24,638 bases of DNA from Acidobacteria bacterium UBA2994 (GTDB lineage: Bacteria > Acidobacteriota > Vicinamibacteria > Vicinamibacterales > UBA8438), in assembly GCA_002346545.1 (NCBI GenBank), contig DEAA01000039.1:1-24638 (forward strand), given 5' to 3'. How positions within the stretch are numbered: the stretch's first letter is position 1; each line of letters begins with the position of its first letter. A program made the position numbers and the translations under genes. The notes beneath the pieces are model-generated. The model was not told where the DNA came from. It did no database searches and saw only the letters and a list, made by a program, of their open reading frames with translations. Below, in pieces: positions 5,721 through 21,885 of this stretch.

Positions 5721-7199
5721 TCAGTCGGGCGCGTTGGCGTTCAGGGCTTCACGTTCCCACGGCGCGAGGTCCATGGGGCGTCTGCTCCCAGCGGCCGGGT
5801 CCGCGCCGAGGCTTTCGAGGAGCGTGACCAGATCGGGGTGCCGGTTGAAGGTGTTGGGATAGAAGACCCCTTCGGCTATTGAAAGCGGTGTCCAGCCGGT
5901 CTCGTTCACCGCGTCTAGCTTGGCGCCCTTGTCGTGCAGGAAGCGGACGACGCCCTCCGCGCCTCGATGAATCGCGCCGTGGAGCGCGGTGTCTCCGTTG
6001 CCATCCACCGCATTGACGTCGTTGCCGAGCTCCCAGGCTAGCTCGACCGCGGCGAGCGCCTCGTCGTTGGTGCCCGGGTTCTCGCCGATTTTCCATATGC
6101 CGACGCCGGCGGCCGCCATCATCGGCGTGGCTCCGTTGTGGGTGGTCAGAGTCGCGTCCGCACCGAGTTCGGCCAGCAGACGCATCATCTCCACGTCGAC
6201 CGCCTTGGCTGCGAGCAGGAACGCCGTGGCCCCCGCGCGGTCCAGCATGTTGCGGTTGCCGTCCCGCGGTTCTTTGACCTGTCGATGATTCGGGTCGGCG
6301 CCGTGTTCGACGAGCAGTCGCGCCATGTCCAGTCCGTCAAGTCGGCCCAGCGGCACCGGGAAGGGGGGATTGCGTCCGAGGTTCGGTCGGCGCGTCCAGA
6401 CCACCTGATGCAGCGGAACCCAGCCCTGGCCGTCGGCGTTCGCATTCGCACCCGCTTCGAGCAGAAGCTCGGCCGCCTCATACTCAGCGTTGTAGACGGC
6501 CAGTCCTAGTGCGCTCGTGCCGTTCGGCAAGGCGTCGTCAGGGTTCGCGCCGGCTTCGATCAACGCGGTGAGCGCATCGAGATTCCCCTCGCGCGAAGCA
6601 AAGAGTAGCGGGGTATACCCGCCTGACGAGGTGGAGTGCAGGTTCGCGCCGCCTCGTATCAGAGCCCTAGCCGCCGTGCCCTGATCTGCCGCCGCCGCCC
6701 ACATCAGTGAGGTCTGCGCCCGCCATCCCTCGACGGAGTCAATATCGGCGCCATGGGCCAGCAGCACCTCGATGCCAGCGGCGTTGCCGGCTCGGGCCAC
6801 CGTCATCAACGGGGTCTCGCCCTCGCCTGTCGTCTGATTGGGGTCGGCGCCGGCTTCGAGAAGGAGGCGCAAGATATCCGGATGTCCGAGTGTCGCCCCG
6901 AGTCCGAGTGGCGTGACTCCGAGTCGTGTGGTGGCGGTCGCGTCGGCGCCGGCGCCGAGGAGCGCCTCGAGCGCGACGCCGTCGCTACGATAGGCGGCCC
7001 AGTGCAGCGCGGTTGTTCCGTCAGGGTCGGTGGCGGTTACGTCTGCGTTCAGTCCGACGAGTGCCACCACGCGCTCGGTGTCGCCGGTCTTAGCCGCATC
7101 GAGCAGGGGAGAGGTCGCCGACTGAGTCGCCGCCGTCGCGGAATACGCCAGGACGAGGCCCGCCAACGCGGTCCCTCTCGCTCGGTTGGTCGAGCCCAT
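5721..7199 (-). CDS. Secreted ankyrin-repeat protein (module 1)
   Basis: A 492-residue protein with an N-terminal export signal (hydrophobic stretch at about residues 10-24, small residues around ATAATQ). Tandem ankyrin repeats follow almost to the end, about ten or more. Examples are GTTALHWAAYRSDGVALEAL, GVTPLGLGATLGHPDILRLL, GETPLMTVARAGNAAGIEVL and GYTPLLFASREGNLDALTAL, each closing with LLEAGADPN-like turns. Two loops interrupt the repeat rhythm, near WTRRPNLGRNPPFPVP and GVGIWKIGENPGTND. Ankyrin arrays bind proteins, so a periplasmic scaffold or inhibitor role is the natural inference; no enzymatic motif is visible. The ATG lies 2 bases after the DUF1552 stop, so the two proteins are made from one mRNA in tandem. 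A paralogue occupies the same place in module 2. Confidence 0.88.
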   Translation of the reverse strand: MGSTNRARGTALAGLVLAYSATAATQSATSPLLDAAKTGDTERVVALVGLNADVTATDPDGTTALHWAAYRSDGVALEALLGAGADATATTRLGVTPLGLGATLGHPDILRLLLEAGADPNQTTGEGETPLMTVARAGNAAGIEVLLAHGADIDSVEGWRAQTSLMWAAAADQGTAARALIRGGANLHSTSSGGYTPLLFASREGNLDALTALIEAGANPDDALPNGTSALGLAVYNAEYEAAELLLEAGANANADGQGWVPLHQVVWTRRPNLGRNPPFPVPLGRLDGLDMARLLVEHGADPNHRQVKEPRDGNRNMLDRAGATAFLLAAKAVDVEMMRLLAELGADATLTTHNGATPMMAAAGVGIWKIGENPGTNDEALAAVELAWELGNDVNAVDGNGDTALHGAIHRGAEGVVRFLHDKGAKLDAVNETGWTPLSIAEGVFYPNTFNRHPDLVTLLESLGADPAAGSRRPMDLAPWEREALNANAPD

Positions 7200-7201
7200 G
7201 T

Positions 7202-8557
7202 CTAGACGCTCAGTGGCTCGAGGTTCAGGACACCGGTGCTGTCACCGAACTGTTCCGGGTACACCACCCCCGCCTTGTCCAGCATCGTCAGTAACAGGTT
7301 CGCCATCGGCGTGTCGGTCGGATAGCGGAGGTGACGATTGCCGTGCACCTGACCGCCTCCGCCGCCGGCAAGGATCAGCGGTAGGTCGATGTGCGAGTGC
7401 TGGTCGCCATCGCTTATGCCGCCGCCATAGAGAATCAGCGACTGGTCGAGCAACGTGCCGTCACCGTCCGGGGTGTCGGCTAGCCGTTTCAGGAAGCCGG
7501 CAAGCAGGTCCACGTGGTAGGTGTTGATCTTGGCGTATTGCTCGAGCTTGGCTGGGTCCATCTGGTGGTGCGACACGGTGTGGTGGGCGTCGGGGACTCC
7601 AACTTCCGGATAGCTCTGCGCGGTTTGCTCTCGGCCGATCAGATAGGTGAACACCCGTGTGATGTCGGCCTGGAACGCCAGCGCCTGCAACTCGAACATG
7701 AGTTGGGCGTGCTCGGTGAATGACTCCGGGATGCCCACGGGCCTGGCCAGATTCTCCGGCAAGGTTGCTTCGTCGGCCTGTGACTCGACGCGCTGTATGC
7801 GGCGCTCGATCTCCCGTACGGCGTCCAGATACTGGCTCACGCGAGCGCGGTCGCCGGCCCCGAGCTTCCGCTCGAGACGGGTCATGTCGTCGCGCACGGC
7901 GTCGAGGATGCTGCGATCTTCCTGGAGGCGCGCCACTCGCTGTTCGGTGGTACCACCCTCGCCGAACAGGCGCTCGAATACTACGCGCGGGTTGTGTTCC
8001 ATCGGAAGCGGGGTGGTCGGCGTGCGCCAGGCGATCGTGTTGGTATAGACACAGCTGTAGCCGTTGTCGCAGTTACCAACAACAAAACTGTTCTCGAGCG
8101 AAATCTCGAGAGAAGGCAGCGGCGTCTCCTGCCCGAGCTTTGCCGCCGCGATCTGGTCGGCGGTGGTGCCGGCCTGCACGTCGGAGCCCTCAGTCCGCTT
8201 CGGATGGACGCCGTTCAGCCAGACCCCGCTTGCGCGGGAGTGCTCGCCGTTGCCGTCACCCCAGGCCTCAGCTTGCCGATGGGCGAGGCCGGTCGGTATC
8301 ACGATCTGATCCTGTACCGGCGCAAGTGGGCTCAAGATGGGAGATAACTCCAGGCCCCCCTCGGCTGCCGGCGTCCACTGAGACATGTTCGCGCCGTTCG
8401 GGATGTAGATGAAGCCCAGCCGCTTGGTGGACCGTGCCGGGGTCTTGGCGAGCGCTGAGCCAGCCGGCACCATCGCGTCGAGGAGCGGGAGCGCCAGTGT
8501 GGCGCCGAGGCCACGGAGGAACGTGCGACGAGGCAGTGACATTTTGGTGATGATCAT
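7202..8557 (-). CDS. Tat-exported DUF1552 protein (module 1)
   Basis: A 451-residue protein of the DUF1552 family, which has no established activity. The N-terminus is a twin-arginine signal: PRRTFLRG at residues 9-16, then a hydrophobic segment ending near SALAK. Tat export suggests folding or cofactor loading before transport to the periplasm. A conserved central element carries C163 and C169 in NCDNGYSCVYT, which could form a disulfide or bind metal. A coiled helical region lies around RLERKLGAGDRARV and EIERRIQRVES. The C-terminal half has His/Asp-rich motifs (HHTVSHHQMD, GISDGDQHSHIDLP, GNRHLRYPTDTPMAN) reminiscent of DUF1501/sulfatase-like proteins; that link is my inference. The protein ends with EQFGDSTG, which is also in the paralogue. 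The start overlaps the DUF1592 stop by 4 bases (ATGA), with GAGGAG 9 bases before it. A start 5 codons later is possible. Confidence 0.92.
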   Translation of the reverse strand: MIITKMSLPRRTFLRGLGATLALPLLDAMVPAGSALAKTPARSTKRLGFIYIPNGANMSQWTPAAEGGLELSPILSPLAPVQDQIVIPTGLAHRQAEAWGDGNGEHSRASGVWLNGVHPKRTEGSDVQAGTTADQIAAAKLGQETPLPSLEISLENSFVVGNCDNGYSCVYTNTIAWRTPTTPLPMEHNPRVVFERLFGEGGTTEQRVARLQEDRSILDAVRDDMTRLERKLGAGDRARVSQYLDAVREIERRIQRVESQADEATLPENLARPVGIPESFTEHAQLMFELQALAFQADITRVFTYLIGREQTAQSYPEVGVPDAHHTVSHHQMDPAKLEQYAKINTYHVDLLAGFLKRLADTPDGDGTLLDQSLILYGGGISDGDQHSHIDLPLILAGGGGGQVHGNRHLRYPTDTPMANLLLTMLDKAGVVYPEQFGDSTGVLNLEPLSV

Positions 8558-10917
8558 GACGAGGTGCTCCTCATGCGGAACGGAACGCTCTTGACTACAC
8601 CCATGATGAGAGAGGTCAATCGATAGTCGTCGCGGGCGGCTTCCCGGGTAATAGCTCTCACCGCCGTGGCGTCGTAGTACTCCACGCCACGTCCAATGGC
8701 GTAGATCAGTAGCTTTTCGGTCACGGTGTTGACGAACCGCTCCGGGTGATCGAGGAGCGCGGTTTTCAGACCAGCTGGACCGTCAAAGACCGTACCGTCC
8801 GGCAGCTCGCCGCGTGTGTCTATTGGCTCCTTGGTCTCGTTCGGGGTGCGCCAGCGACCAACGGCGTCGAATGGCTCAAGCGCGAGTCCCATCGGGTCCA
8901 TCACCCGGTGGCAACTTGCGCAGACCGGGTTGGCGCGGTGTTGCACCATGGCCTCTCGCATCGTGAGCTGTTGGCCGCTGGTCGTTTCTTCGAGCGCCGG
9001 CACGTCGGGGGGTGGGGGTGGCGGCGGGTTGCCCAGGATGTTCTCGAGTACCCACTTGCCTCGCACGACGGGAGACGTTCGGTTGGCGTGCGAGGTGACC
9101 GTCAGGATGCTGCCATGGCCGAGGAGGCCACCACGCGCGGGATCGTCCAGTGCGACACGACGGAACTCGCTGCCTCGGACCCCGGGGATGCCGTAGTGGG
9201 TGGCGAGGCGCTCGTTCAGGAACGTGTAGTCAGCGCTCAGAAGCTCGACCACACTGAGCTCCTCTCGGAGCACGTGTTGGAAGAGTAGCTCGGTCTCGCG
9301 GCGGAACCCGTGGCGCAGGTCTTCGCCAAAATCTGGAAATTCGTCCTCGTCTGGGCGGACCGCCGCGGCGTTCCTGAGGCTCAGCCACTGACCGGCAAAA
9401 TTGGTGACCAACGCCTCGGCGCGCGGGTCCGACAGCATTCGCCGCGTTTGAGCCTCGAGCACCGCGGGCTCGTGCAGCCGCCGCTCGATGGCGAGGTCGA
9501 GGAGTTCGTCGTCTGGAATACTGCTCCACAGGAAGAAAGACAGCCGCGAGGCGAGCTCCAGGTCCGAGATCTCGTACGGGGTATTCGCCGCCAGCCCCTC
9601 CGGATCCTGTTCAATTCTGAACAGGAACTCGGGGCTTACGAGAAGGCGTCGCAGGGCCAGGTCGATGCCTCCATCGAAACCAGCTGACTCGGCACCCTGG
9701 TCGTAGAACGTCAGAAGTTGATCGACGTCGGTGCCGTCCACTGGGCGCCGGAACGCGCGTCGAGCCAGGGTGGTCAGAATCTCGTGGGCGCAGCCACGGG
9801 TCGCGACGGCGTCGTTGGCGGTCGGAGCGCAGGAGAAGATGCGAGCGCGGCTCGGCGTATCCACGGCCGGCCTGGTGCCGCGCGACTCGAAGGGACCGGC
9901 GATGGTCACGGCCTCAACATATGGCTGGTAGCGGGAGTCGCCACCCGATCCTTCTCCGGTGAAGGGGCGCAGGTACAGCTTGCGGCTCCGTTCCGGCGCC
10001 GCTGCGCTCTTGGCCAGGAACGCGACGCCGAGGCGGTGGGGACCGGCCGCTACCCGAACCCGGACTTCTCGTGGGTCGGCCTCGGTCGAGTACTCGCGCG
10101 GGCGCTGTCCCGGCTCCAGCCGTCGGCCGACACTGAACAGCTCGACGCGTTCCCCATCCAGGGTCACTTCGAGCTGATGCTCCTCGATATACAGTGGACC
10201 GTCGGGTAACACCGAGATGGCGTATTCGGCGTCCTCTGGGAAGTTGTAGTCGATGAACGTGCCGCCACGCGTGCCGAACGGGAGTCCAGCGATGTGCCGG
10301 TCCTGATCCAGGTCGGACGGGATGCGGAAGGTCTCGGCGGTCGCCGACGGGACGGGCGAACCGATCGCTAGACGGCTGATCTTCCGGGCGGCCGCGAGGT
10401 AGCGCTCCATCGAGGTGGGCGAGATCCCCAGTACGCCAGCGATGTTGTCGAAGCCGTAGCTGGTGTCGTCGGCAGGGAGCAGGTCACTGACGTTCACATC
10501 CAGCCCGAGCAGATCGCGGATGACGTATTGATACTCTGTGCGGCTCAGTCGATGAAGCGCCTCAGTGCGTCCCGGCTTGAGGGAGGCGCTCGCGGCATGG
10601 TCGAGCTCGGCTTCGAGCCACAGACGCAGGCCGTCGTACGCCTCTGGCTCTGGCCTCGGTCGAGGCTGCGGCGGCATTGCTCCCGCCCTGAGTTTTCGGA
10701 TCACCCTTTCCCAGGTCTCGGCGTGGTCGGGGACGTCGCTGAGCAGGAGGCCCTCGAGCGACAGGCCGCCCGTTTCGAGCTGGTCGTTGTGGCAGCTCAG
10801 GCAGTACCTGTCGACTAGCGCCGCCTGCGTCTCACGCCCGCTCGGCTGTGCGCCGAGCGGCGCGGCCAGGGCCAGCGACACACAGAGCACGCCGGCGACG
10901 AAGCGGACGTCCGTCAT
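8554..10917 (-). CDS. Secreted di-haem DUF1587/DUF1592/DUF1588/DUF1585 protein (module 1)
   Basis: A 787-residue exported multidomain protein of the 'Planctomycete cytochrome' type. A Sec signal peptide comes first, then a c-type haem site CLSCH at residues 39-43. DUF1587 (about 122-186) contains RLSRTEYQYVIRDLLGLD. A beta-sandwich, possibly carbohydrate-binding-like, spans about 195-340. DUF1595 (about 350-410) contains ARRAFRRPVDGTDVD. DUF1592 (about 425-560) is marked by LASRLSFFLWSSIPDDELL and NFAGQWLSLR. DUF1588 (about 570-680) has GNPPPPPPPDVP and a second CxxCH (CASCH, from residue 666), and DUF1585 lies at the C-terminus. Two haems suggest electron transfer in the periplasm; the substrate is unknown. 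An in-frame start 27 codons upstream (10998) would put coding sequence over a good divergent promoter and bury the signal peptide, so the start at 10917 is chosen. The DUF1552 gene overlaps its stop. Confidence 0.92.
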   Translation of the reverse strand: MTDVRFVAGVLCVSLALAAPLGAQPSGRETQAALVDRYCLSCHNDQLETGGLSLEGLLLSDVPDHAETWERVIRKLRAGAMPPQPRPRPEPEAYDGLRLWLEAELDHAASASLKPGRTEALHRLSRTEYQYVIRDLLGLDVNVSDLLPADDTSYGFDNIAGVLGISPTSMERYLAAARKISRLAIGSPVPSATAETFRIPSDLDQDRHIAGLPFGTRGGTFIDYNFPEDAEYAISVLPDGPLYIEEHQLEVTLDGERVELFSVGRRLEPGQRPREYSTEADPREVRVRVAAGPHRLGVAFLAKSAAAPERSRKLYLRPFTGEGSGGDSRYQPYVEAVTIAGPFESRGTRPAVDTPSRARIFSCAPTANDAVATRGCAHEILTTLARRAFRRPVDGTDVDQLLTFYDQGAESAGFDGGIDLALRRLLVSPEFLFRIEQDPEGLAANTPYEISDLELASRLSFFLWSSIPDDELLDLAIERRLHEPAVLEAQTRRMLSDPRAEALVTNFAGQWLSLRNAAAVRPDEDEFPDFGEDLRHGFRRETELLFQHVLREELSVVELLSADYTFLNERLATHYGIPGVRGSEFRRVALDDPARGGLLGHGSILTVTSHANRTSPVVRGKWVLENILGNPPPPPPPDVPALEETTSGQQLTMREAMVQHRANPVCASCHRVMDPMGLALEPFDAVGRWRTPNETKEPIDTRGELPDGTVFDGPAGLKTALLDHPERFVNTVTEKLLIYAIGRGVEYYDATAVRAITREAARDDYRLTSLIMGVVKSVPFRMRSTSS

Positions 10918-10970
10918 TTGTCGAGCGGTCCCAGGTAAAGCAAGTAGTCTATGGAGCAACCCGTGGACTA

Positions 10971-10998
10971 TTTTGGTGCTTCGGCTCGAGAGTGTCAA
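10971..10998 (-). promoter_or_regulatory. Candidate sigma70-type promoter for the module 1 leftward operon
   Basis: On the minus strand a perfect TTGACA (10998-10993) is followed after 16 bases by CAAAAT (10976-10971; 4 of 6 matches to TATAAT). This would start transcription about 45-50 bases before the ATG at 10917. The -35 lies inside the gap of an inverted repeat. The prediction is by eye only. Confidence 0.45.
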
Positions 10999-11010
10999 TC
11001 AAACGAGCCG
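10982..11010. promoter_or_regulatory. Inverted repeat in the module 1 divergent promoter region
   Basis: CGGCTCG at 10982-10988 and its exact reverse complement CGAGCCG at 11004-11010 are separated by 15 bases that contain the minus-strand -35 TTGACA. The position and spacing suit an operator for a dimeric regulator of the leftward operon and perhaps of both arms. Module 2 has related half-sites in the equivalent gap. Confidence 0.4.
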
Positions 11011-11039
11011 GCGCGGCAAAACGGTTCTCAGGGCATTGC

Positions 11040-11069
11040 TTGACACCGCCGGTGGCGCACGGATATTTA
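11040..11069 (+). promoter_or_regulatory. Candidate sigma70-type promoter for the PQQ-like propeller gene (module 1)
   Basis: A perfect TTGACA at 11040-11045 is followed by GATATT (11062-11067, spacer 16) or TATTTA (11064-11069, spacer 18) in an AT-rich patch unusual for this GC-rich region. Transcription would begin about 30 bases before the ATG at 11106. Confidence 0.5.
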
Positions 11070-11105
11070 TGCGTGCAACCTGACTCCAGAGACGAAAGGA
11101 CCGCC

Positions 11106-12497
11106 ATGTCGCCTCGACTGTGTCTCCCCTTTGCACTGCTCGGCGCCTTGACTCTGCCGGCCTCGACGGTCGGGGCGCAGTGGACCCAGTTTCGGGGCTC
11201 GAACGCCGGCGACGTCGGCGACGATCCTCGGCTGCCCGATACCTGGAGCGTGACCGAGAATGTCGTCTGGAGTATCGACGTACCCGGGTTGAGCTGGAGT
11301 TCGCCGGTGGTGTGGGAGAACACGATTTTCGTGACTTCGGCCATCAGCGCGGGCGAGGAGCCGGCTCCGATTCCCGGTCTCTATGACCCGGGCGATGACA
11401 ACGGTGCGACTCGCTCCGCGCAGGAACATCGCTGGGTGGTCTACAACATTGATTTCGAGACCGGCATGGTGCGATGGGAGCGCGAGCTGGCCTCGGCGGC
11501 GCCAGAGATCGCGCGGCACATCAAGAACAGCTTTGCCTCCGAAACACCGGTCACCGATGGCCGCCGGGTCTACGCCTATTTCGGGAGCGCCGGAGTGGTT
11601 GGCGCGCTGAATATGAGCGGCGAGACGGTTTGGACCACGGAACTGGGTGCGTTCGAGACCACTCTGGGGTTCGGTTCCGCCGCCTCGCCGGTGTTGCACG
11701 GCGACCGTCTCTATATCGTCAACGACAACATCGATCAGTCGTTCATGGTGGCGCTCGATAAGAATACGGGGCGTGAGATCTGGCGGGTCGAGCGGAACGA
11801 GCGAGGCCAGAACTGGGCCACCCCGTTCGTCTGGGAGCATGCTGAGCGGACCGAGATCGTCACTTCCGGCACCCAGGGGGTCCGTTCCTACGGCCTGGAC
11901 GGTAACCTGCTGTGGGAGATGCACGGCATGTCCGGGCTAACCATCCCGACCCCGTTCGCTAAGCACGGGCTGCTCTACATCAGTTCTGGCTATCCCGGCG
12001 GGGGGTTGCGGCCGGTCTATGTCGTCAAGCCGGGCGCGACCGGCGATATTTCGATCTGGTCGCCTGATGACATGCGGACCGGGCTGTCGTCGGGGTTCCC
12101 TGGAACCAAGGCGTCGTCAGACGCTATTGCCTGGGCGTACCCCCTGTTGGGCACCTACAACACCTCGGCCTTGGTCTATGGCGATCAGTACTACACGCTA
12201 CTCGATCGTGGCTTCCTCGTGGCTCACGATGCCCGGACGGGCGACGAGGTGTATGGCCGGCGGCGGCTCGAGATCGGCAACGGGTTCACCGCCTCGCCCT
12301 GGGCCTACAATGGCAAGATCTTCCTGCTCAGCGAAGACGGCGATACGTTCGTCGTGCGGGCTGGACCCCAGTTCGAGATTCTGCACACTAACCGGCTGGA
12401 GGAGATGACGCTGTCGACTCCGGCGGTCGCCTACGGGAGTCTCGTCGTGAGAACGCAGTCGAAGCTGTATCGGATTGCCGAAGGAGGACGACCGTGA
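11106..12497 (+). CDS. Secreted PQQ-like beta-propeller protein (module 1)
   Basis: A 463-residue protein. A Sec signal peptide ends near TVGAQ, followed by the WTQFRGSNAG opening typical of exported PQQ-like (BamB/quinoprotein-fold) propellers. Trp-docking repeat motifs recur, such as NIDFETGMVRWERE, ALDKNTGREIWRVER and GLDGNLLWEM. The Cys-Cys pair and the catalytic Asp/Glu signature of true quinoprotein alcohol dehydrogenases are not evident, so PQQ binding and enzyme activity are unproven; a structural or substrate-binding role is equally possible. The start at 11106 is chosen because AAAGGA lies about 7 bases upstream and the signal peptide follows at once; the open frame further upstream runs through the promoter. 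The gene is divergent from the DUF1592 operon and overlaps the LVIVD gene. Its paralogue at 20500 is very similar along the whole length. Confidence 0.93.
   Translation: MSPRLCLPFALLGALTLPASTVGAQWTQFRGSNAGDVGDDPRLPDTWSVTENVVWSIDVPGLSWSSPVVWENTIFVTSAISAGEEPAPIPGLYDPGDDNGATRSAQEHRWVVYNIDFETGMVRWERELASAAPEIARHIKNSFASETPVTDGRRVYAYFGSAGVVGALNMSGETVWTTELGAFETTLGFGSAASPVLHGDRLYIVNDNIDQSFMVALDKNTGREIWRVERNERGQNWATPFVWEHAERTEIVTSGTQGVRSYGLDGNLLWEMHGMSGLTIPTPFAKHGLLYISSGYPGGGLRPVYVVKPGATGDISIWSPDDMRTGLSSGFPGTKASSDAIAWAYPLLGTYNTSALVYGDQYYTLLDRGFLVAHDARTGDEVYGRRRLEIGNGFTASPWAYNGKIFLLSEDGDTFVVRAGPQFEILHTNRLEEMTLSTPAVAYGSLVVRTQSKLYRIAEGGRP
12481..12487 (+). promoter_or_regulatory. Strong ribosome binding site fixing the GTG start of the LVIVD gene
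   Basis: AAGGAGG lies 6 bases before the GTG at 12494, inside the last codons of the propeller gene. This near-perfect Shine-Dalgarno supports a GTG start with a 4-base overlap (GTGA). Confidence 0.7.
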
Positions 12498-13489
12498 AGA
12501 TCTCTGACCTGAGACGGCGGGTGGCTTGCGTCGTGGTGGGCGGCGTTGCCGGCGCGGTGGCCAGTGGAGGCGTGGTGTTCACCCAGGAGTCTCTGACCCC
12601 CGTGGGAACCATTCCAGGCCCGGTTGAGCATGTGCGTGCGGTCGAAGATCGAGTGTATCTATCCCATCACACCGGTCTGGCCGTTTGGGACGTGTCCGAT
12701 CCGAGCGCGCCGACGAAGCTGGGCGAGACCGAGTTCCCGGAGGAGATCTGGGGGTTCCGAGTTCGTGGGGATCGCGTCTATGTCGGCGCCAACTTCTTCG
12801 GCGTGGGGATTGTGGACGTATCGGATCCGTCGGCGCCGTCGCTGCTGGGCGCTCACAAGACCCTCGGCCAGGCCAAAATCGGCGCGGTCTGGGAGAACCG
12901 TGTGGTGTTGATCGACCACATGGAGGGCATGGTGATGGTCGACACGACCGACGAGTCGGCGCCGACGGGAGCCGGATCGTTCTTTCTCGACGGCTATGCC
13001 CGTGACGTCGTGACCTCCGGCCACATAGCCTATGCAACTGATTCGCCCACGGGCCTATATGTCTTCGATCTCTCCGTCTCTGGCGAACCGGCGCCGGTTG
13101 GGGTCCTGCACGCTCCCGCCTCTCCCCGATTCATCGAGGTGCAGCGGGAGGCGGGCGCCCCTTCGGGCATTTTGGCAGGCGGGGGCGGGGGAGACCTGCA
13201 GATCTACGACGCCACCGACCCTACCGTGCCAAGGCGCACCGCGACTTTTGAGACCCCGGGGCGTGCGGCCCGTGTGGCGATGTCTGGCGATCTCGTGTTC
13301 GTGGCCGACACGGATGCCGGTGTCACGATTGTCGACATCTCAGATCCGTCGTCGCCAAGCGGGGCCGGATCGTTCCTGACCGATGCCCCGGCACGGGATA
13401 TCGCGGCTACCGACACGCATGTGTTTGTGGTCGTGGGTGCGGGTGAGCGCCAGGACGGGCCCACCGAACTCCAGATTCTGTCGAGGTAG
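12494..13489 (+). CDS. Exported LVIVD-repeat beta-propeller protein
   Basis: A 331-residue protein. A basic N-terminus and hydrophobic segment (about residues 10-30) form a signal peptide or anchor. Six or seven LVIVD repeats of about 42 residues follow, with cores such as TGLAVWDVSDPSAPTKLG, FGVGIVDVSDPSAPSLLG, EGMVMVDTTDESAPTGAG and AGVTIVDISDPSSPSGAG. The LVIVD family forms propellers found in exported proteins of bacteria and archaea and has no single known function. The GTG start overlaps the stop of the PQQ-like gene (GTGA) and has a very strong ribosome binding site, so the two propellers are made together. Module 2 has no equivalent next to its PQQ-like gene. The gene ends 61 bases from the convergent YjbQ-like gene. 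Confidence 0.88.
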   Translation: MKISDLRRRVACVVVGGVAGAVASGGVVFTQESLTPVGTIPGPVEHVRAVEDRVYLSHHTGLAVWDVSDPSAPTKLGETEFPEEIWGFRVRGDRVYVGANFFGVGIVDVSDPSAPSLLGAHKTLGQAKIGAVWENRVVLIDHMEGMVMVDTTDESAPTGAGSFFLDGYARDVVTSGHIAYATDSPTGLYVFDLSVSGEPAPVGVLHAPASPRFIEVQREAGAPSGILAGGGGGDLQIYDATDPTVPRRTATFETPGRAARVAMSGDLVFVADTDAGVTIVDISDPSSPSGAGSFLTDAPARDIAATDTHVFVVVGAGERQDGPTELQILSR

Positions 13490-13496
13490 TCGCCTG

Positions 13497-14681: not shown

Positions 14682-14705
14682 ATCGGCGACCCGCTGGCGT
14701 TAGCG

Positions 14706-16475
14706 TCAACAGGAGAGACAGCGGTGGCTATTGGTGGCGCCCAGGCTCTCAAGTAGAGCGATGGTGTCCGGGAACGGTTGGATACGCTGAACCGGGCCAT
14801 TTGCCATGTCGACCGTCGTCTGGCCGGTACGGCTGACCTGGGTTACGTCGACGCCCTGGGCCACGAGGTAGCGGATCAGGTCGTTGTCTCCACGGGCGGC
14901 GGCGTGGTGCACGGAGTTGTAGCCGTTATGGTCCCGGAAGTGAACGTCGGCTCCGAGTTCTTCGACTAGAAAGCGCACCGTCGGGAGCCAGCCGCCAGGC
15001 ACGTGACGGTGGGTGTTCCCCGCGTAGCCCTGACCGTACCCCACGCCCGCCGCCGCCAACAGCGGTGAGACGCCCGGGCCGCCCATTGGGGTCGGTGGCA
15101 GACCGGAGGGGTCGGGGTCGAGCGGCCGCTGCCGGCTTGGCACCTTGATCGTCGGGATGTGCGGATCGGCGCCGTGGGAGAGCAGGAGCCGCATTGCGTC
15201 GAGGTCCAGCGCGTAGGCGGCTCGCCAGAACGGTGTGGCACCGGCGCGGTCGACGCCAAGCAGGTCACGGTTGTAGGTGGTGTACCACAGGGAGCGCTCA
15301 AGCCGGACATTGACATCGGCACCCGCATCGACGAGCGCCGTCATCAACTCGAGGTAGGACGTGGCCTGCTGCATGTAGTCGGTCGGCTGAGGGTGTCGCG
15401 CCTTGGGTGCCCACTGGATGTTCAGCGCGCCGTAGAGCGGTGTGGCCCCGGCATCGCTCGCCAGTGTTGGATCGGCCCCTCGGGTGAGTAGCGCTCGTGC
15501 CAGGTCGAAGTGACCGTTGATCGCCGCGATGAGGAGCGGGCTGGTCCCGTCGGCGGCGCTTACCCGATTGATGTCTGCGCCACCCTGGAGGAGGGCCAGC
15601 ACGGTCTTGATATGTCCGTCGCGTGCTGCCAACAGCAGCGGGGTGAGTCCACCGTGGGTGCCCACGAGGTCGGCGAATCCCAGCGGTTCGGGCTCTTCCT
15701 GCAGATCGGCTTCTCGCTCGACGGCGTCGGCGGCTGCTGCAGCCGCACGAACCGCAGGCGACGGTGGCGCGGTTGAGGCTGCGCGGGAGGGCAGTGCCAC
15801 CTCGGACAACTCGTCGGTAGGGGTTCGGCCGGCGCGGAACGCGGCAATCCGCTCGCGACGTCGGCGGCTGTCGGCGCGATCGGCGGTGTCGCGTGCTGAG
15901 ATGTCGACGACGCGGCCCGCGCGATCCGGGTTGGCGCCGCGGGCGAGCAACAGGGCCACCGTCGTGGTCCGGTTAGAGGCGGCGGCGAACATGAGCGAAG
16001 TCTGGCCCCAGGTCGGTTCGGTGGCGTCAATTAGCGCACCGCCATCGAGTAGGGCGTCGACGGCGCCGTCCGCGCCGCTGCCGGCCGCGAAGTGGAGTGG
16101 GGTGGCCCCGGTCTCGGTCTCCGCCGTCGGATCGGCGCCGCTGGCAAGCAGGGAGCGGACGACGGCTTCCCTGGCGGCACGGCTGGCCACGTGGAGCGGC
16201 GTGTGTTGGCCGAGACGGGTCACGGCCGTCGTTGAGGCCCCGGCCTCCAGGAGTAGATCGACCAGCGGCTCGTCGCCCCGGTACGCCGCCCAGTGAAGGG
16301 CCGTCATTCCGTCTCCAAGTGGAGCGTTTACGTCGGCGTCTTCGGTTAGAAGTGCTCGGACCGCTTCGAGGTCTCCGCGACGAGCTGCGTCAGCCACCGG
16401 CCCCGAGTTGGCGGTCGCCGGCGCGGCCATCCAGACGACCGCGATGCAGAGCGGCGTAATCCAGCTGGTGCGCAT
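14706..16475 (-). CDS. Secreted ankyrin-repeat protein with an internal linker (module 2)
   Basis: A 589-residue protein with a clean Sec signal (MRTSWITPLCIAVVW, small residues around ATANS) and two blocks of ankyrin repeats. The first block (about residues 25-185) has cores such as MTALHWAAYRGDEPLVDLLL, HTPLHVASRAAREAVVRSLL and ATPLHFAAGSGADGAVDALL. A charged linker of about 80 residues rich in Arg, Ala and Glu follows (about 186-266). The second block starts at GGLTPLLLAARDGHIKTVLA and is interrupted by proline-rich loops (VPSRQRPLDPDPSGLPPTP). The end carries two Cys (CLSC). It is probably a periplasmic protein-binding scaffold like its module 1 paralogue, which lacks the linker. A GTG at 16487 would overlap the DUF1552 stop by 4 bases; the ATG at 16475 is preferred for the signal peptide, although neither has a strong ribosome binding site. 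Confidence 0.87.
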   Translation of the reverse strand: MRTSWITPLCIAVVWMAAPATANSGPVADAARRGDLEAVRALLTEDADVNAPLGDGMTALHWAAYRGDEPLVDLLLEAGASTTAVTRLGQHTPLHVASRAAREAVVRSLLASGADPTAETETGATPLHFAAGSGADGAVDALLDGGALIDATEPTWGQTSLMFAAASNRTTTVALLLARGANPDRAGRVVDISARDTADRADSRRRRERIAAFRAGRTPTDELSEVALPSRAASTAPPSPAVRAAAAAADAVEREADLQEEPEPLGFADLVGTHGGLTPLLLAARDGHIKTVLALLQGGADINRVSAADGTSPLLIAAINGHFDLARALLTRGADPTLASDAGATPLYGALNIQWAPKARHPQPTDYMQQATSYLELMTALVDAGADVNVRLERSLWYTTYNRDLLGVDRAGATPFWRAAYALDLDAMRLLLSHGADPHIPTIKVPSRQRPLDPDPSGLPPTPMGGPGVSPLLAAAGVGYGQGYAGNTHRHVPGGWLPTVRFLVEELGADVHFRDHNGYNSVHHAAARGDNDLIRYLVAQGVDVTQVSRTGQTTVDMANGPVQRIQPFPDTIALLESLGATNSHRCLSC

Positions 16476-16483
16476 GATGGGGC

Positions 16484-17881
16484 TCACGCCGAGAGGGACA
16501 GCGTGCCGGTGCTGTCTCCGAACTGTTCTAGGTCGTCGACACCCAGCCGGTGCAAAAGATCCAGCATGGCGTTGGCCATTGGCGTGCCAGGCGCGGCGCG
16601 CCGGTGCAGGTTTCCAGCTAGTTGCCCGTGGGATCCGCCGAGCACGATCAGCGGGCAGCGCTTGTGGTTGTGCACGTTCGGGTCGCCCATCGGCGAGCCG
16701 TAGATGACCATGGCCTTGTCCAGCAAGGTGCCGTCGGCTTCTTCGAGCGCCTGCAGCTTGTCGAGAAAGTACGGCAGCAGACTGACGTGGTACCGGTTAA
16801 TCTGGGCGAACGCCTCGATATTCTGCTCCCGATCTCCGTGGTGGGATGCGGGATGGAAGCCGCGGTTGATGCCGCTCTCCGGGTACACACGCCCCGTGGC
16901 GTCGCGCGAGAGCTTGAAGGAGAACACTCGGGTCATGTCGCTCTCGAACGCTAGCGCCTGAAGGTCGAACATCAGCTTGACGTGCTCGTCGAACGAGTCT
17001 GGCACCCCCGGAGGGGCACTGGGAAGACCTCTGGCCTCACCGTTCCGGTTCTGCGCTTCGATCCGCTGAATGCGCCGCTCGATCTCTCGGATGTCATCGA
17101 GATAACGGTCCATTCGGCGCTGATCGGCTGGATCGAGCTCTTTCCGCAGGCGGGCGATTTCGTCTGTGATGAAGTCGAGCACGCTTCGTTGCGCGTCCCG
17201 CCGTGCCGCGCGATCCTCAGCGGTGCTGCCGGCGCCAAAGAGTTGGTCGAAGGCCAGTCTCGGATCCCGAATCATCGGGAGGGGATCGGTTGGCGACGCC
17301 CAGCTGATCGTGTCGGTGTAGACACAGGAGTAGCCGTAGGCACAGCCGCCAGCCTGGTCCACGTTCTCGATGCACAGCTGCATCGACGGGATCGGCGTGT
17401 TCTGGCCAAAGCGTTGGGCGTAGAGTTGATCGAGCGAAGTCCCCGAGCGGACGTCTGAGCTTTCGGTCTGCTTGGGGTGCGACTGGGTCAGGAAGGTTGC
17501 GCTCGAGCGGAAGTGATCGCCTCCGATTTCTGGGGGCGTGACCGCCTCGGCCGGACGGACGTCAGTGTTGCTGACGATCGTCAATTGATCACGGTAGCGC
17601 TCGAGTGGGGACAGGGCACTGGTCGATAGGTCGAAGTCGCGGCCGGTGGCCGCCGGGGCCCACAGGTGCCGGGACGCGCCGTAGGCGGTGCTACCAGCGG
17701 CGCCGTGCACGTTCTCGATGCAGACGAGTCGTATTGGGTCCGCTAGAGACTGCGCGATGGCGGTCTGGCGCCAGGGGCGGCCTGCAGGGGTGAAGGCGTC
17801 CAGGAAAGGGAGCGCAACCGACACGCCAAGCCCGCGAAGAAAGGTCCGACGAGGCAGGTATCTTCCGGTGACCACGGTCAT
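16484..17881 (-). CDS. Tat-exported DUF1552 protein (module 2)
   Basis: A 465-residue paralogue of the DUF1552 protein of module 1. The twin-arginine signal is LPRRTFLRG at residues 9-17 with a hydrophobic stretch after it. The conserved pair C180 and C186 lies in GCAYGYSCVYT. The SSDVRSGTSLDQL and EIERRIQRIEAQN elements match the paralogue, and the C-terminus closes with the same EQFGDSTG. The His-rich motifs differ: FHPASHHGD is kept, but the later loop reads GSPMGDPNVHNHKRCPL instead of GGGISDGDQHSHIDLP, so the possible metal or substrate site is altered. The function is unknown. Unlike in module 1, it is separated from the DUF1592 gene by 90 bases holding a plausible -10 box, so it may be partly independently transcribed. 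The ankyrin gene follows with overlap or an 8-base gap. Confidence 0.91.
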   Translation of the reverse strand: MTVVTGRYLPRRTFLRGLGVSVALPFLDAFTPAGRPWRQTAIAQSLADPIRLVCIENVHGAAGSTAYGASRHLWAPAATGRDFDLSTSALSPLERYRDQLTIVSNTDVRPAEAVTPPEIGGDHFRSSATFLTQSHPKQTESSDVRSGTSLDQLYAQRFGQNTPIPSMQLCIENVDQAGGCAYGYSCVYTDTISWASPTDPLPMIRDPRLAFDQLFGAGSTAEDRAARRDAQRSVLDFITDEIARLRKELDPADQRRMDRYLDDIREIERRIQRIEAQNRNGEARGLPSAPPGVPDSFDEHVKLMFDLQALAFESDMTRVFSFKLSRDATGRVYPESGINRGFHPASHHGDREQNIEAFAQINRYHVSLLPYFLDKLQALEEADGTLLDKAMVIYGSPMGDPNVHNHKRCPLIVLGGSHGQLAGNLHRRAAPGTPMANAMLDLLHRLGVDDLEQFGDSTGTLSLSA

Positions 17882-17904
17882 GATGGACTGCTACTCCTGG
17901 CCCT

Positions 17905-17910: not shown

Positions 17911-17971
17911 CTGATTCCATGGAGCTTCGCCCAAAATACCACGCACGGCAGGCTCTTTGTCCAGCAACATA

Positions 17972-20395
17972 CTATTGCTCCGCCGCTCCAGCTTCTTCTC
18001 CGCCCTTCATCTGAAAGGCGGGAGATCGGACCACTCCAAGGATATAGGCTGAGAGGCGATGGTCGTCATCGGCGGCCTCGCGGACGATAGCCCTGATCCC
18101 AGGCATGTCGTAGGGTGCGATCCGTCGTCCGATGGCATACGCCATCAGGTTCTCGGTGAAAGTACGTAGCAGCGGAGTCGGCCGCCGGACCAGGGCGGTC
18201 CGGAGGTCGGAGGCGGAGGTGATGGGCGAACCGTCATATAGGGCGCCGCTGGCATCGATAGGTTGCCCGTTGTCCCAGCGCCGTCTGGCGCCGGTCACAT
18301 CGTAGTGCTCGAGCGCCAGCCCGATCGGGTCCATCATCCGATGGCAGGATGAGCATGCCGGACTCGCGCGGTGTCGCTCGAGGCGCTCGCGAACCGAAAG
18401 GAGCCGGCCGCTGTCGTTCGCCGTTGTCTCTTCGAGGTCCGGGACGTCAGGTGGGGGAGGCGGCGGCGGGCTGCCGAGGAGTACCTCCATGACCCATTTC
18501 CCCCTTAGTACCGGTGAGGTGCGGTCGGCGTACGAGGTGAGGGCCAGCACGGCGCCATGGCCCAGGAGCCCGCGCCGGTCCGGGTCGTCGATCGCGATGC
18601 GGGCGACGTCCGGACCACCGGGATGCGTCAGGCCGTAGTGCTGGGCGAGGCGCTCGTCGGCGAACGTATAGTCGGCCGTTAGGAGCTCGAGCACGGGGCG
18701 GTCCTCGCGGACGACGTGCTCGAAGAGCCGCTCGGTTTCCCGTCGCATCGCGTGTTTGAGCTGCTCGTCGAAGTCCGGGTAGATGCGGACGTCCGGATGC
18801 AGCCCGTCCAGGTCTGGCAGCCGCAGCCACTGGGCGGCAAAGCGGGTTGCGAGCGCTTCGGAGCGCGGGTCGGCTAGCATGCGATGAACTTCGGACTCGA
18901 GGACATCAGGGTCCGACAGGAGACTCTCACGGGCGCGATCGAGCAGCGTGTCATCAGGCCCGCTCGCCCAAAGGAAGAAGCTGAGGCGCGAGGCGAGGTC
19001 GTGGTCGCTCAGCGGGAACTGGGCCGACGGGGCCAGATCGACTGGCGGCTCCTCGAATCGGAACACGAATTGCGGGCTTGCGAGGAGGCCTTCGAGTGCC
19101 ATCCGGATCCCGCCCTCGAACCCATCACCGCTGGCCCCACGTTCGTAGAGGCCGAGCAGCGCTGAGAGATCCTCCTCGGTTGGCGGGCGGCGATAGGCGA
19201 TCGTACCGAGATTCTGGAGGATCGTGCGCGCACAGGCGGGGGCGTCGACAGGCGTCGCCGGCCGGCAGCTGAAGATGCGGGCTCGGCTTGGGGTGTCGGA
19301 GATGCCCACCGGGGCGATTGGTCCGCGGATAGCGAGATCGCGGAGGTGCGGGAGACTGGTGAAGCCGTAGGCGTTCGCGATGCTGGTACTGGCGAGCGAC
19401 CACTCGTGCGGCGAGATCAGGTCCTGCACGGGGCCGTCGAACTGTCGAATGAACACCGCCGAGATCCGGTGGGGGCCGGCTGAGATCCGGGCCGGCGGGG
19501 TCCAAAGGTTCACGCCGTTTGGATCGGAGACCTGCATCCATCGGTCGATGTCGAGCAGGGCGACACGAACGCCGTCGACCGAGATCTCCAGCTGCTCTGG
19601 GCGCTCGGCGGTATGGAGCGCCGCTCGGGCACTCCCGAACAGTTCGCCTGTCGTCTCGTGATGAAACGACACCCGGAAGACGTAGTCGGCGTCGGAAGGG
19701 AACGTATGTACGACGGAGAGACCACCTCGTGAACCGTACGGCGCGCCTTCGACCTGCTCGCGCTGCGACACCCAGCGGGTGACCTTGTAGGTGGTTTCGT
19801 TCGGGCCTCCTGCGGTGTCGCCCACCGCCAGTCGGCTGACGTCGCCGGCGGCGCGTAGATAGCCGTTCATCAAAGTGGGTGAGAGCAGCTGCGTGTCGGC
19901 GATGTTGTCGAAGTTCGCGCTCTTCGTGTCTGGCGGGAGGTACGCCCCGGCGTCGATGTCGAGTGCCAGTAGGTCCCGCACTGAACGCTCGTACTCTGCC
20001 CGGTTTAGCCGCTGAAAACTGCGGCGTCCAGGGTTGGGCGCGGCGGCCTCATCTAGGTGCTGCTCCAAGGCCGTGGCGAGCCCGACCAGTGCCGCTTCGT
20101 TCGGTCGGGTACTGCCGGCCGGAGGCATCAGACCGGCTTGCAGCTTCTTGACCATGCCCTCGGCTAGGCTGGGCCGTTCGGCGGCCGCCGAAACCTCGAA
20201 CCCGTCGAGGGAGAGGTTGCCGTAGCGGGCCTGGTCGTTGTGGCAGCGGCGGCAGGTCTGGTCAACGACCGCCTGTGCGTCTAGGTCGGGAGTCTGGGCG
20301 TGAACGTGGGTGTCGATGCCTGCTCCAGAGCATAGCCACCATACGGTCGCGGCGACACCGAGACGGCGGGGCAGGCGCGCCCGCCAAGACAGCAT
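17972..20395 (-). CDS. Secreted di-haem DUF1587/DUF1592/DUF1588/DUF1585 protein (module 2)
   Basis: An 807-residue paralogue of the module 1 cytochrome protein with the same domain order. It has a Sec signal, first haem site CRRCH at residues 48-52, DUF1587 (RLNRAEYERSVRDLLALDID) and a beta-sandwich middle region (GPHRISAVFIRQF). Then come DUF1595 (TIAYRRPPTEEDLSALL), DUF1592 (LASRLSFFLWASGPDDTLL, FAAQWLRLPDL), DUF1588 with LGSPPPPPPPDVP and a second haem site CSSCH from about residue 681, and DUF1585 (LMAYAIGRRIAPYDMPGIRA). It is predicted to be a periplasmic electron-transfer protein with unknown substrate. A GTG two codons earlier (20401) is an alternative start; neither has a clear ribosome binding site. 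The C-terminal tail (KGGEEAGAAEQ) is extra compared with the paralogue. Confidence 0.91.
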   Translation of the reverse strand: MLSWRARLPRRLGVAATVWWLCSGAGIDTHVHAQTPDLDAQAVVDQTCRRCHNDQARYGNLSLDGFEVSAAAERPSLAEGMVKKLQAGLMPPAGSTRPNEAALVGLATALEQHLDEAAAPNPGRRSFQRLNRAEYERSVRDLLALDIDAGAYLPPDTKSANFDNIADTQLLSPTLMNGYLRAAGDVSRLAVGDTAGGPNETTYKVTRWVSQREQVEGAPYGSRGGLSVVHTFPSDADYVFRVSFHHETTGELFGSARAALHTAERPEQLEISVDGVRVALLDIDRWMQVSDPNGVNLWTPPARISAGPHRISAVFIRQFDGPVQDLISPHEWSLASTSIANAYGFTSLPHLRDLAIRGPIAPVGISDTPSRARIFSCRPATPVDAPACARTILQNLGTIAYRRPPTEEDLSALLGLYERGASGDGFEGGIRMALEGLLASPQFVFRFEEPPVDLAPSAQFPLSDHDLASRLSFFLWASGPDDTLLDRARESLLSDPDVLESEVHRMLADPRSEALATRFAAQWLRLPDLDGLHPDVRIYPDFDEQLKHAMRRETERLFEHVVREDRPVLELLTADYTFADERLAQHYGLTHPGGPDVARIAIDDPDRRGLLGHGAVLALTSYADRTSPVLRGKWVMEVLLGSPPPPPPPDVPDLEETTANDSGRLLSVRERLERHRASPACSSCHRMMDPIGLALEHYDVTGARRRWDNGQPIDASGALYDGSPITSASDLRTALVRRPTPLLRTFTENLMAYAIGRRIAPYDMPGIRAIVREAADDDHRLSAYILGVVRSPAFQMKGGEEAGAAEQ

Positions 20396-20418
20396 TATCA
20401 CTATCGGGTAAGTGTAAT

Positions 20419-20461
20419 CGGAGCCGCAGCGTTTTTTCTACGACGGACGGGACCGGCTCCG
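20419..20461. promoter_or_regulatory. Inverted repeat in the module 2 divergent promoter region
   Basis: CGGAGCCG at 20419-20426 and its exact reverse complement CGGCTCCG at 20454-20461 are separated by 27 bases that include a run of six T (20432-20437). The pair lies between the divergent DUF1592 and PQQ-like genes. The half-sites resemble those of the dyad in module 1 (CGGCTCG/CGAGCCG). No convincing -35/-10 pair was found here on either strand. An operator is possible, and so is chance in GC-rich DNA. Confidence 0.35.
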
Positions 20462-20499
20462 GGATAGGATGCCCCCGATCGGTCAACAAGGAGTTGGGT

Positions 20500-21885
20500 A
20501 TGAAGTGGGGAACCCCGATGCTCGCCGTCGTCCTGGTCTTGGGCGCGGTCTCGGCGGCCAGTGGCCAGCAGTGGCCGCAGTTTCGAGGGACCGGTACCGG
20601 GCAAGTGCCGGACGATCCGGCGCTGCCAGATCGGTGGAGCGAGATCGAGAACATCGCCTGGAAGATCGACATTCCAGGGTTGAGCTGGGCGTCGCCGATC
20701 GTTTGGGACGATCACATCTTCGTGGTGACGGCCACGAGCGCAGCGGACGACGAAGAAGTGCAGCCGATTCCAGGTCTGTACGACCCGGGCGAGCACAACG
20801 GGTCGGTGCCGGCCAGCGCCGAACATCGGTGGCTGCTCTACGACATCGACTTCCAGACTGGCGAGATCCGGTGGCAGCGTGAGATTCACCGTCAGGTGCC
20901 AGAGATCACACGTCACCTGAAGAACAGCTACGCGTCTGAAACACCCGTCACCGATGGTGAGCGCGTCTACGTCTATTTCGGTGCCGTCGGGCTCGTCGCC
21001 GCCTTCGACTTTGAGGGAAACGAGCGGTGGCGGCGAGACCTTGGCACCTTCAATACGATGCAGGCGATGGCGACCGCGTCTTCACCGGCGCTGCACGACG
21101 GCCGCTTGTATGTGCTGAACGACAACACCGAGCAGTCCTTTCTGACCGCGCTAGACGCCGAGACCGGTGCCGAAGTCTGGACCGTCCAGAGGGATGAGCC
21201 CGGGCACACCTGGTCGACGCCGTTGGTGTGGGAGAACCACCTGCGTAGCGAGATAGTGACGTCGGCGACCGGGAAAGTTCGCTCATATGATCTAGATGGC
21301 GGGTTGCTTTGGGAACTGAGCGGTATGTCGTTGCTCTCGACACCGAGTCCCTTCACGAGCCACGGGCTCGTCTACATCAGTTCCGGTTATCCGGGTGGGG
21401 CGTTACGTCCGGTCTATGCGATTCAGCCAGGGGCGGCTGGCGACATCTCCATCTACCAGGAGGTGGCCAGCGGTCTTCAGGAAGGTTTTCCTGGAACCAG
21501 GCACTATTCCCGGGACGAACACGTCGTCTGGTCCTATCCGCTGCTGGGCACCTACAGCACCACGGCGCTGGTCTATGACGATGTGTATTACACGCTGCTG
21601 GACCGCGGCTTTCTGACCGCGCACGACGCAGCGACCGGCGAAGAGATCTACGGACGCCGGCGATTGGAGATCGGAAACGGATTCACCGCTTCGCCATGGG
21701 GCTACAACGGGTTGATCTTTCTTCTTAGCGAGGACGGTGACACGTTCGTGGTGCGAGCGGGCCCAGAATTCGAGATCTTGCATAAGAACTCGCTCGACGA
21801 GATGTCGCTGGCCACGCCTGCCATCGCCCATGGGAGTGTGATTCTCCGCACGCAAAGCAAGCTCTACCGGATCGCGCAGCAGTAG
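20500..21885 (+). CDS. Secreted PQQ-like beta-propeller protein (module 2)
   Basis: A 461-residue paralogue of the propeller at 11106, sharing well over half its residues by eye along the full length. A Sec signal ends near AASGQ, then come WPQFRGTGTG, IPGLYDPGEHNG, LKNSYASETPVTDG, YISSGYPGGALRPVYA, YGRRRLEIGNGFTASPWGYN and SEDGDTFVVRAGPEFEILH. Several of these strings are identical or nearly so in the other copy. Trp-docking repeats (ALDAETGAEVWTVQR, DIDFQTGEIRWQRE) give a PQQ-like propeller fold; the dehydrogenase signature residues are not evident. The start is supported by AAGGAG (20488-20493) 6 bases upstream of the ATG. The gene is divergent from the DUF1592 gene across about 100 bases. 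The channel gene follows 80 bases later and is probably separate. Confidence 0.93.
   Translation: MKWGTPMLAVVLVLGAVSAASGQQWPQFRGTGTGQVPDDPALPDRWSEIENIAWKIDIPGLSWASPIVWDDHIFVVTATSAADDEEVQPIPGLYDPGEHNGSVPASAEHRWLLYDIDFQTGEIRWQREIHRQVPEITRHLKNSYASETPVTDGERVYVYFGAVGLVAAFDFEGNERWRRDLGTFNTMQAMATASSPALHDGRLYVLNDNTEQSFLTALDAETGAEVWTVQRDEPGHTWSTPLVWENHLRSEIVTSATGKVRSYDLDGGLLWELSGMSLLSTPSPFTSHGLVYISSGYPGGALRPVYAIQPGAAGDISIYQEVASGLQEGFPGTRHYSRDEHVVWSYPLLGTYSTTALVYDDVYYTLLDRGFLTAHDAATGEEIYGRRRLEIGNGFTASPWGYNGLIFLLSEDGDTFVVRAGPEFEILHKNSLDEMSLATPAIAHGSVILRTQSKLYRIAQQ

Follow-up and report, generated by a model that had tools for sequence, protein, structure and literature searches.

A recurrent trio of DUF1592, DUF1552 and ankyrin genes in an acidobacterial genome, and two of its copies lying side by side

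Contig DEAA01000039.1 of the Acidobacteria bacterium UBA2994 (Vicinamibacterales, assembly GCA_002346545.1) was analysed over positions 1 to 24,638, and this stretch of 24,638 nucleotides is referred to below as the window. It carries two similar gene blocks, module 1 and module 2, each with genes for a DUF1592-type cytochrome c, a DUF1552 protein, an ankyrin-repeat protein and a propeller of the pyrroloquinoline quinone (PQQ)-like type. In this study I show that the conserved unit is the trio of DUF1592, DUF1552 and ankyrin genes, of which the window holds two of about twenty copies in the genome, and that the two modules, as far as their trees tell, are old paralogues and not the outcome of a local block duplication. 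The trio is probably secreted. A first-pass annotation, made from the sequence alone, had described the same four families in the same order and orientation in both blocks, and this description stands for the families, their order and their orientation. The blocks are nevertheless not identical in content, because module 1 adds a gene for an LVIVD-repeat protein and module 2 adds an orphan gene for a protein of 376 amino acids (aa).

In the source genome, which is incomplete (4.12 Mb in 82 contigs), DUF1552 is matched 26 times. The number of DUF1592 genes is about 31, since one split gene accounts for two of the 32 matches. A DUF1592 gene adjoins the DUF1552 gene in all 26 cases. At 21 of the 26 DUF1552 genes an ankyrin gene directly adjoins the pair or is fused to it; two further ones have an ankyrin at a distance of 2.0 and 2.6 kb, with other genes between, and three (C26:116268, C71:63887 and C18:55644) have none. 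Seen from the other side, the genome has 107 Ank_2 matches in 24 genes, 22 of which (105 matches) are trio ankyrins, and the only ankyrin genes apart from the trios are C4:78554 and C21:7308. That 22 of 24 ankyrin genes lie within 4 kb of a DUF1552 gene has, by a binomial estimate, a chance of about 2e-25. The recurrent multi-gene unit of the first-pass annotation is thus supported as far as DUF1592, DUF1552 and the ankyrin are concerned.

Some trio loci have peculiarities of their own. At L033:1619-8623 one DUF1592-DUF1552 pair is flanked by an ankyrin on both sides and the next pair downstream has none directly adjoining, and at L042:10719-13220 a DUF1592 gene seems to be broken into more than one frame, with two pieces of PF07631 on C7, by sequencing error or decay. 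Three related proteins of about 700-745 aa are encoded near trios (L032:8212-10449, L044:2946-5093 and L045:1837-3951); they are possibly outer-membrane receptors, and two of them have a sub-threshold CarboxypepD_reg match.

The trees of the three trio proteins place modules 1 and 2 apart. Module 1 and its orthologues group with the source-genome modules L031 and L038 (weakly for DUF1552, starred for DUF1592 and the ankyrin). Module 2, again with its orthologues, joins L048, a grouping that is starred in all three trees. Trees constrained to keep the window modules and their orthologues in one group were rejected for each protein by the approximately unbiased (AU) test (p-AU 2.7e-6 for DUF1552, 3.4e-46 for DUF1592 and 4.2e-6 for the ankyrin), and the proposal of the first-pass annotation that the machine had duplicated as a block is thereby contradicted. 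The two window propellers fall in one group, which also holds G007 (support 93, not starred). All of these trees are quick ones; the propeller tests were run without own_L029_134 and the DUF1552 test without own_L027, both for their long branches, and the DUF1592 tree omits five rows that were short or distant. A propeller grouping test without the orthologues (p 0.053) is superseded by the test that includes them.

Within the source genome, the pairwise distances of the three trio proteins agree over 17 unambiguous modules (r 0.81, 0.65 and 0.64, with 0 of 20000 permutations each). Two L033 modules were dropped from this set since their ankyrin pairing is unsure, and L047 and the fused module L032 were never in it. 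On 20 modules including the split-frame L042, the correlation between DUF1592 and DUF1552 was 0.42 (386 of 20000 permutations as high), and on 19 modules, with L042 dropped, the three values were 0.76, 0.59 and 0.60. The window pair is not a close one among the 171 module pairs that 19 modules give, as it ranks at 156, 122 and 118.

The neighbourhood of the two modules recurs in relatives. In G008 (L158), too, they are neighbours, with about 5 kb between them, and in G005 (L160, L269) a module-2-type trio is found about 5 kb from the LVIVD gene of module 1. In G001 (L167) and G003 (L166), a piece of the orphan is found near module 1 where the contig ends, a hint of the same neighbourhood; in G010 the modules are on different contigs (L161, L164), with no orphan piece hinting at adjacency. 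The side-by-side position is thus kept within the family, but what it joins are two old paralogous trios, and it did not arise by a recent tandem duplication of four genes.

In both blocks the DUF1592, DUF1552 and ankyrin genes follow each other in that order on the minus strand, and the propeller is transcribed away from DUF1592. In module 1, the ankyrin gene (5721-7199, minus strand, 492 aa, Ank_2 176 bits) encodes a signal-like N-terminus and occupies the same position adjoining DUF1552 in L050, L160, L164 and L166. It is joined by the gene for the DUF1552 (HXXSHH) protein (7202-8557, minus strand, PF07586 334 bits), with a twin-arginine leader and a predicted alkaline-phosphatase/sulfatase fold, and by the gene for the cytochrome (8554-10998, likely start 10917, minus strand, PF07631 163 bits), with two CxxCH sites and the parts PSCyt1, PSD3, a sandwich resembling a carbohydrate-binding module (CBM), PSD5, PSD4, PSCyt3 and PSD2. 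The trio of module 2, likewise on the minus strand, comprises an ankyrin gene (14706-16487, 593 aa, Ank_2 180 bits), a DUF1552 gene (16484-17881, PF07586 302 bits) and a DUF1592 gene (17972-20401, two CxxCH sites, PF07631 157 bits). The trio genes overlap by 4 bases at 8554/8557 and 16484/16487 and abut at 7199/7202; the exception is in module 2, where 90 bases separate DUF1592 from DUF1552. Between the blocks, identity is 44% for DUF1592 (801 columns), 45% for DUF1552 (464 columns), 62% for the propeller (455 columns) and 45% for the ankyrin (181 columns, a part of the protein). The gene positions and families as first annotated match these results, with Pfam scores far above cut-off, and the shared EQFGDSTG ends and CX5C motif of the DUF1552 pair, the two CxxCH sites of each DUF1592 protein and, by a crude test, export-like leaders were all found again. 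The flanking genes of the window have ordinary matches (RpiB-like, metallo-beta-lactamase, YncE-like propeller, HSP90, MscS-like and AdoHcyase).

DUF1552 copies number 15-47 per genome in all 18 other genomes of the same Acidobacteriota family, and 0-13 in 12 genomes from other families of the same order. Among the named relatives close to module 1 are the Acidobacteria metagenome-assembled genomes UBA2990 (87%) and SAT150 (86% DUF1552 identity), and further named relatives of its DUF1552 protein are labelled Vicinamibacterales or Vicinamibacteria. In 79 named loci, being those closest to the window DUF1552, 81 of 85 DUF1552 genes have DUF1592 next door and 76 of 85 have an ankyrin within 4 kb (45 of 48 when at least 2 kb of flank is present on both sides), an ankyrin rate that is biased upward because the loci were chosen for closeness to the window.

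A fairer count within genomes comes from a second survey. It covers 60 DUF1552 loci of seven genomes that were reached through the named loci, and omits one match of G036, three of G038, one each of G033 and G037, and all of G034, G039 and G040; because the genomes were chosen for holding one, each has at least one window-like locus by construction. An ankyrin accompanies 16 of the 60 loci: 1 of 12 in Isosphaeraceae, 1 of 17 in Planctomycetota, 1 of 14 in Opitutaceae, 6 of the 7 taken in Gammaproteobacteria, 5 of the 6 taken in Longimicrobiales, 1 of the 3 taken in Alphaproteobacteria and 1 of 1 in Pseudomonadales. Ordered by rising similarity to the window family, the counts are 0/33, 1/10 and 15/17. 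The DUF1592/DUF1552 pair thus does not need the ankyrin in general, because 40 of the 43 surveyed pairs from Planctomycetota and Opitutaceae are without one. When the ankyrin label is mapped on a 125-row tree of DUF1552 proteins, 3 changes suffice, compared with a mean of 37 after shuffling (4 changes with strict source-genome labels, 3 with the 4-kb rule). This tree is a quick, unrooted one with long branches; it holds a part of the named loci, rows with little flank and no ankyrin were left out, and four source-genome ankyrin labels were set by hand. Most simply, as read from this unrooted tree, the ankyrin would have been gained once and then kept in one DUF1552 clade that crosses phyla. 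Adjacency of the trio is kept over several phyla, with a gene order that varies, as the ankyrin stands before, after or divergent from the pair.

Two observations from the wider survey may be added. The nearest relative of the window's second DUF1552 protein in the 125-row tree, at 60% identity, is L237, from the Longimicrobiales genome of L118; it is closer to it than any other source-genome copy, by horizontal transfer or deep paralogy. The planctomycetal genome G032, that of L120 (8.5 Mb), has 127 DUF1501 matches in addition to 17 DUF1552 matches.

The domains PF07626, PF07637, PF07631, PF07627 and PF07624 occur in this order and above cut-off in both window cytochromes, and in module 1 PF07635 is above cut-off as well. 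Exactly two CxxCH sites are present in all 62 DUF1592 proteins compared, and Met108 is invariant, which would fit electron transfer. The predicted model of the module 1 protein (mean predicted local distance difference test score, pLDDT, 88) has, between the two CxxCH sites, a beta-sandwich at about residues 216-373 that bears a modest resemblance to CBM35/36; a sequence search for solved relatives of DUF1592 gave none that was significant. According to passages of PMC5615132, PSCyt3 genes usually adjoin a family of unknown genes, which that text leaves unnamed, some PSCyt genes encode CBMs, and nothing is known of their function. In a part of PMC2754498, a secreted DUF1552 protein of Rhodopirellula baltica is listed, and the domains of another PSD/PSC protein are taken to suggest a redox function; an excerpt of PMC7789669 has DUF1587, DUF1588, DUF1592 and DUF1595 among the domains from a domain comparison for anaerobic respiration design.

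For the DUF1552 protein, the predicted fold resembles that of the alkaline-phosphatase superfamily, with its alkaline phosphatases and sulfatases. In a count of conserved His and Asp residues, as candidates for a metal site and nucleophile, His106, His326, His330 and His387 are invariant, and in the H-x-x-S-H-H region His326 and His330 are each found in 67 of 67 proteins and His331 in 65 of 67. The S1 sulfatase motif C-x-P/A-S/A/T-R was found in none of the 67, and the looser pattern [CS].[PAT].R, counted anywhere in the protein regardless of its place, in 29 of them. HHalign comparison of DUF1552 with three PF00884 proteins of the source genome gave no significant match, and among solved structures the best sequence match was a CRISPR protein without significance (E 0.015). 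A comparison of one profile with one, DUF1552 against DUF1501, gave an HHalign probability of 97.5 (E 8.5e-12, 299 columns), and DUF1552 therewith appears to be a distant relative of DUF1501.

As to the ankyrin partner, a single open frame of 1474 aa (L032:2216-6640) combines ankyrin repeats with the full DUF1592 set, and P0047 (1181 aa), among the best 120 of 815 homologues of the L032 ankyrin part, is a second fusion of the same make-up. Related ankyrin parts are joined to a molybdopterin oxidoreductase in P0046 (which has an arginine-rich stretch between the parts and may itself be an artefact), to a GSDH domain in P0072, and in P0030 to a CxxCH protein whose tail weakly resembles a cyclase. 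The fusions to DUF1592 and to other redox partners suggest that the ankyrin serves to dock redox proteins. In P0029, P0035 and P0038 the partner of the related ankyrin domain is an unnamed C-terminal domain. No description of an ankyrin partner of DUF1592/DUF1552 was found in the open-licence literature searched, subscription papers lying outside this search.

I therefore put forward, at somewhat less than an even chance, that the blocks are two copies of a secreted, ankyrin-scaffolded three-protein redox module acting on glycan-like substrates. The ankyrin solenoid would dock the cytochrome and the DUF1552 protein to each other, either in the periplasm or at the cell surface, and the sandwich of the cytochrome would hold the substrate, a glycan or a compound like it. 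In the DUF1552 protein, a putative pocket with the invariant His106, His326, His330 and His387 may bind or cleave this substrate and handle its charged group, and the two hemes could pass electrons from the substrate into the respiratory chain, or carry them from that chain to an oxidase. The about twenty diverged copies of the trio may then serve different substrates. Several observations weigh against this proposal. In addition to the Planctomycetota and Opitutaceae pairs that lack an ankyrin, the CBM35/36 match of the sandwich is modest, with TNF/C1q-like chains tying with it in a search of folds in the Protein Data Bank (PDB), a search that speaks to the sandwich and barely covers the helical and heme parts; no Pfam CBM model matched the window proteins. 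The trio-neighbour genes scanned in the source genome, which are a part of all, are diverse and contain no constant glycan enzyme, and the genome has 9 matches to the PF00884 sulfatase family. Finally, congruent histories of the trio would also arise from linkage alone.

Alternatively, the ankyrin may help the cytochrome to assemble or deliver heme to it, rather than being a scaffold, with the cytochrome and the DUF1552 protein acting as a pair. Passages of PMC7567364 state that catalase in Pseudomonas aeruginosa and Campylobacter jejuni depends for its activity on ankyrin proteins, which probably enable heme to bind, and a title in its reference list calls AnkB periplasmic. A role in which the ankyrin would help to load or protect the heme protein thus has a precedent in what is proposed there for AnkB/KatB and Cj1386/KatA. 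The trio neighbour carries heme sites as well, and P0030 joins a related ankyrin to a CxxCH protein. However, the partner in the trio is a c-type cytochrome and not a catalase, the pair does without an ankyrin at the 40 of 43 loci given above, and the molybdopterin oxidoreductase and GSDH fused in P0046 and P0072 are not expected to bind heme. Moreover, attaching c-type heme is as a rule the task of the general cytochrome c maturation (Ccm) machinery. I regard a heme-delivery role as unlikely.

A role of the trio in building the cell envelope or an extracellular polymer, instead of in catabolism, would have Tat proteins of the DUF1552/DUF1501 type modify or place a polymer together with their large partners. 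It draws on the DUF1800-DUF1501 pair which, in the part of PMC5122149 concerned, stands beside bacterial chitin synthase genes, with a twin-arginine motif on the DUF1501 protein, the relative of DUF1552. However, no polymer synthase is among the trio neighbours scanned (again a part of them), and the cytochrome partner suits redox work. I hold this explanation to be distinctly improbable.

The remaining genes of the blocks bear on the four-part machine of the first-pass annotation, an obligate one that includes the propeller and was duplicated as a block. The propeller genes lie on the plus strand, in module 1 from a likely start at 11106 to 12497 (463 aa, PF13360 60.5 bits, the Pfam cut-off being 27.6), across a divergent intergenic region from DUF1592 (10918-11105, bounded by likely start codons), and in module 2 from a likely start at 20500 to 21885 (461 aa, 68 bits); both encode single, BamB-like propellers. 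The LVIVD-repeat propeller gene of module 1 (12494-13489, plus strand, PF08309 100.6 bits) overlaps the end of the propeller gene, and the orphan of module 2 (13551-14681, minus strand) is without a Pfam match; its orthologue L161:2024-3094 is weakly UPF0047-like (PF01894 23.4 bits, cut-off 27). Order is kept in relatives to a degree that speaks for such a machine: propeller and trio keep it for module 1 in L050, L160, L164 and L166 and for module 2 in L158 and L161, and the two window propellers share a tree group. Module 1 with both propeller and LVIVD gene is kept in these same four loci (L164 being on the same contig as L049) and partly in L158, L165 and L167, the LVIVD gene adjoining the propeller in L050, L158, L160, L164, L166 and L167. 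Module 2 with the orphan is kept in L158 and L161, where the orphan adjoins the ankyrin, and partly in L163; its propeller has copies of 77-86% identity in five family genomes and a partial one (94%) in G001.

However, a propeller of the window family directly faces DUF1592 at 2 of the 26 source-genome DUF1552 loci, both of them in the window. At L045 a third homologue is separated from a trio by about 2.5 kb. Of the 9 homologues in the source genome, 6 are on contigs without a DUF1552 match, and four of these (L174-L177) were checked and have no DUF1592 or DUF1552 match within stretches of 16 kb. Pairs of propeller and LVIVD genes without a DUF1592 match occur in L168, L169, L170 and L171. 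The propeller as a constant part is rejected by these counts, and it is accessory; together with the LVIVD and orphan genes it is an add-on of these two loci and not core. With block duplication rejected for the trio, the four-part machine is refuted as a general rule, and in any form it is very improbable. The propellers are not supported as PQQ-dependent enzymes either. A vicinal disulfide is a feature of PQQ-dependent dehydrogenases, and the window propellers have no Cys after their likely signal peptides; the second propeller, for which this comparison was made, scores 28 bits against TIGR03075, with a curated cut of 480, and a sequence search gave it no significant match among solved structures. 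PqqE was not matched above cut-off in the incomplete source genome, which proves little, as the same holds for all 14 control genomes.

That the trio is a chance neighbourhood or hitch-hikes without a functional link is scarcely credible: although co-inheritance alone also yields congruent distances, the adjacency goes far beyond chance, spans several phyla with changing gene order, and extends to fusion into one frame.

The redox module on glycan-like substrates, set out above as the preferred reading, leads to a wider proposal that I consider doubtful, namely that a single acquisition of the ankyrin scaffold made the widespread cytochrome/DUF1552 pair an interchangeable secreted redox toolkit, which radiated to the 15-47 DUF1552 copies per genome of one Acidobacteriota family as a functional counterpart of polysaccharide-utilisation loci. 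If true, the chemistry would fall not to glycoside hydrolases but to a di-heme cytochrome that binds glycans and to its partner with a re-purposed phosphatase fold. In the genomes of Acidobacteriota, Planctomycetota and Verrucomicrobiota that were searched, DUF1592 and DUF1552 proteins are heavily multiplied, with as many as 47 DUF1552 copies in one genome. The three-gene unit, the link of DUF1552 to DUF1501 and the phosphatase fold, the glycan-module-like domain of the cytochrome and the natural fusion give concrete and testable handles on a function that PMC5615132 calls unknown.

Among known systems, the planctomycete-specific cytochromes of the PSCyt3/PSD2-5 type (DUF1592, DUF1588, DUF1587, DUF1585 and DUF1595) are those with which the window shares its Pfam domains and the pairing with DUF1552. 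The trio differs from them in an ankyrin partner tied to one clade, in its copy number in one Acidobacteriota family, and in the CBM-like sandwich within the model predicted for the standard protein. PSCyt2/PSD1 (DUF1549/DUF1553) proteins pair with DUF1501, and like the DUF1800-DUF1501 pair they combine a large partner with a Tat-type protein, although the domains of the large partner are other than those of the trio. The predicted DUF1552 fold is that of the S1 sulfatases and the alkaline-phosphatase superfamily, without the formylglycine motif of the former in all 67 proteins. The propellers resemble BamB and the PQQ-dependent dehydrogenases in their PF13360 repeats, whereas the window proteins are one small propeller each and have no cysteine past the likely signal peptide. 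With AnkB-KatB and Cj1386-KatA, lastly, the trio has in common an ankyrin protein tied to a heme protein, the partner being a c-type cytochrome together with DUF1552 instead of a catalase.

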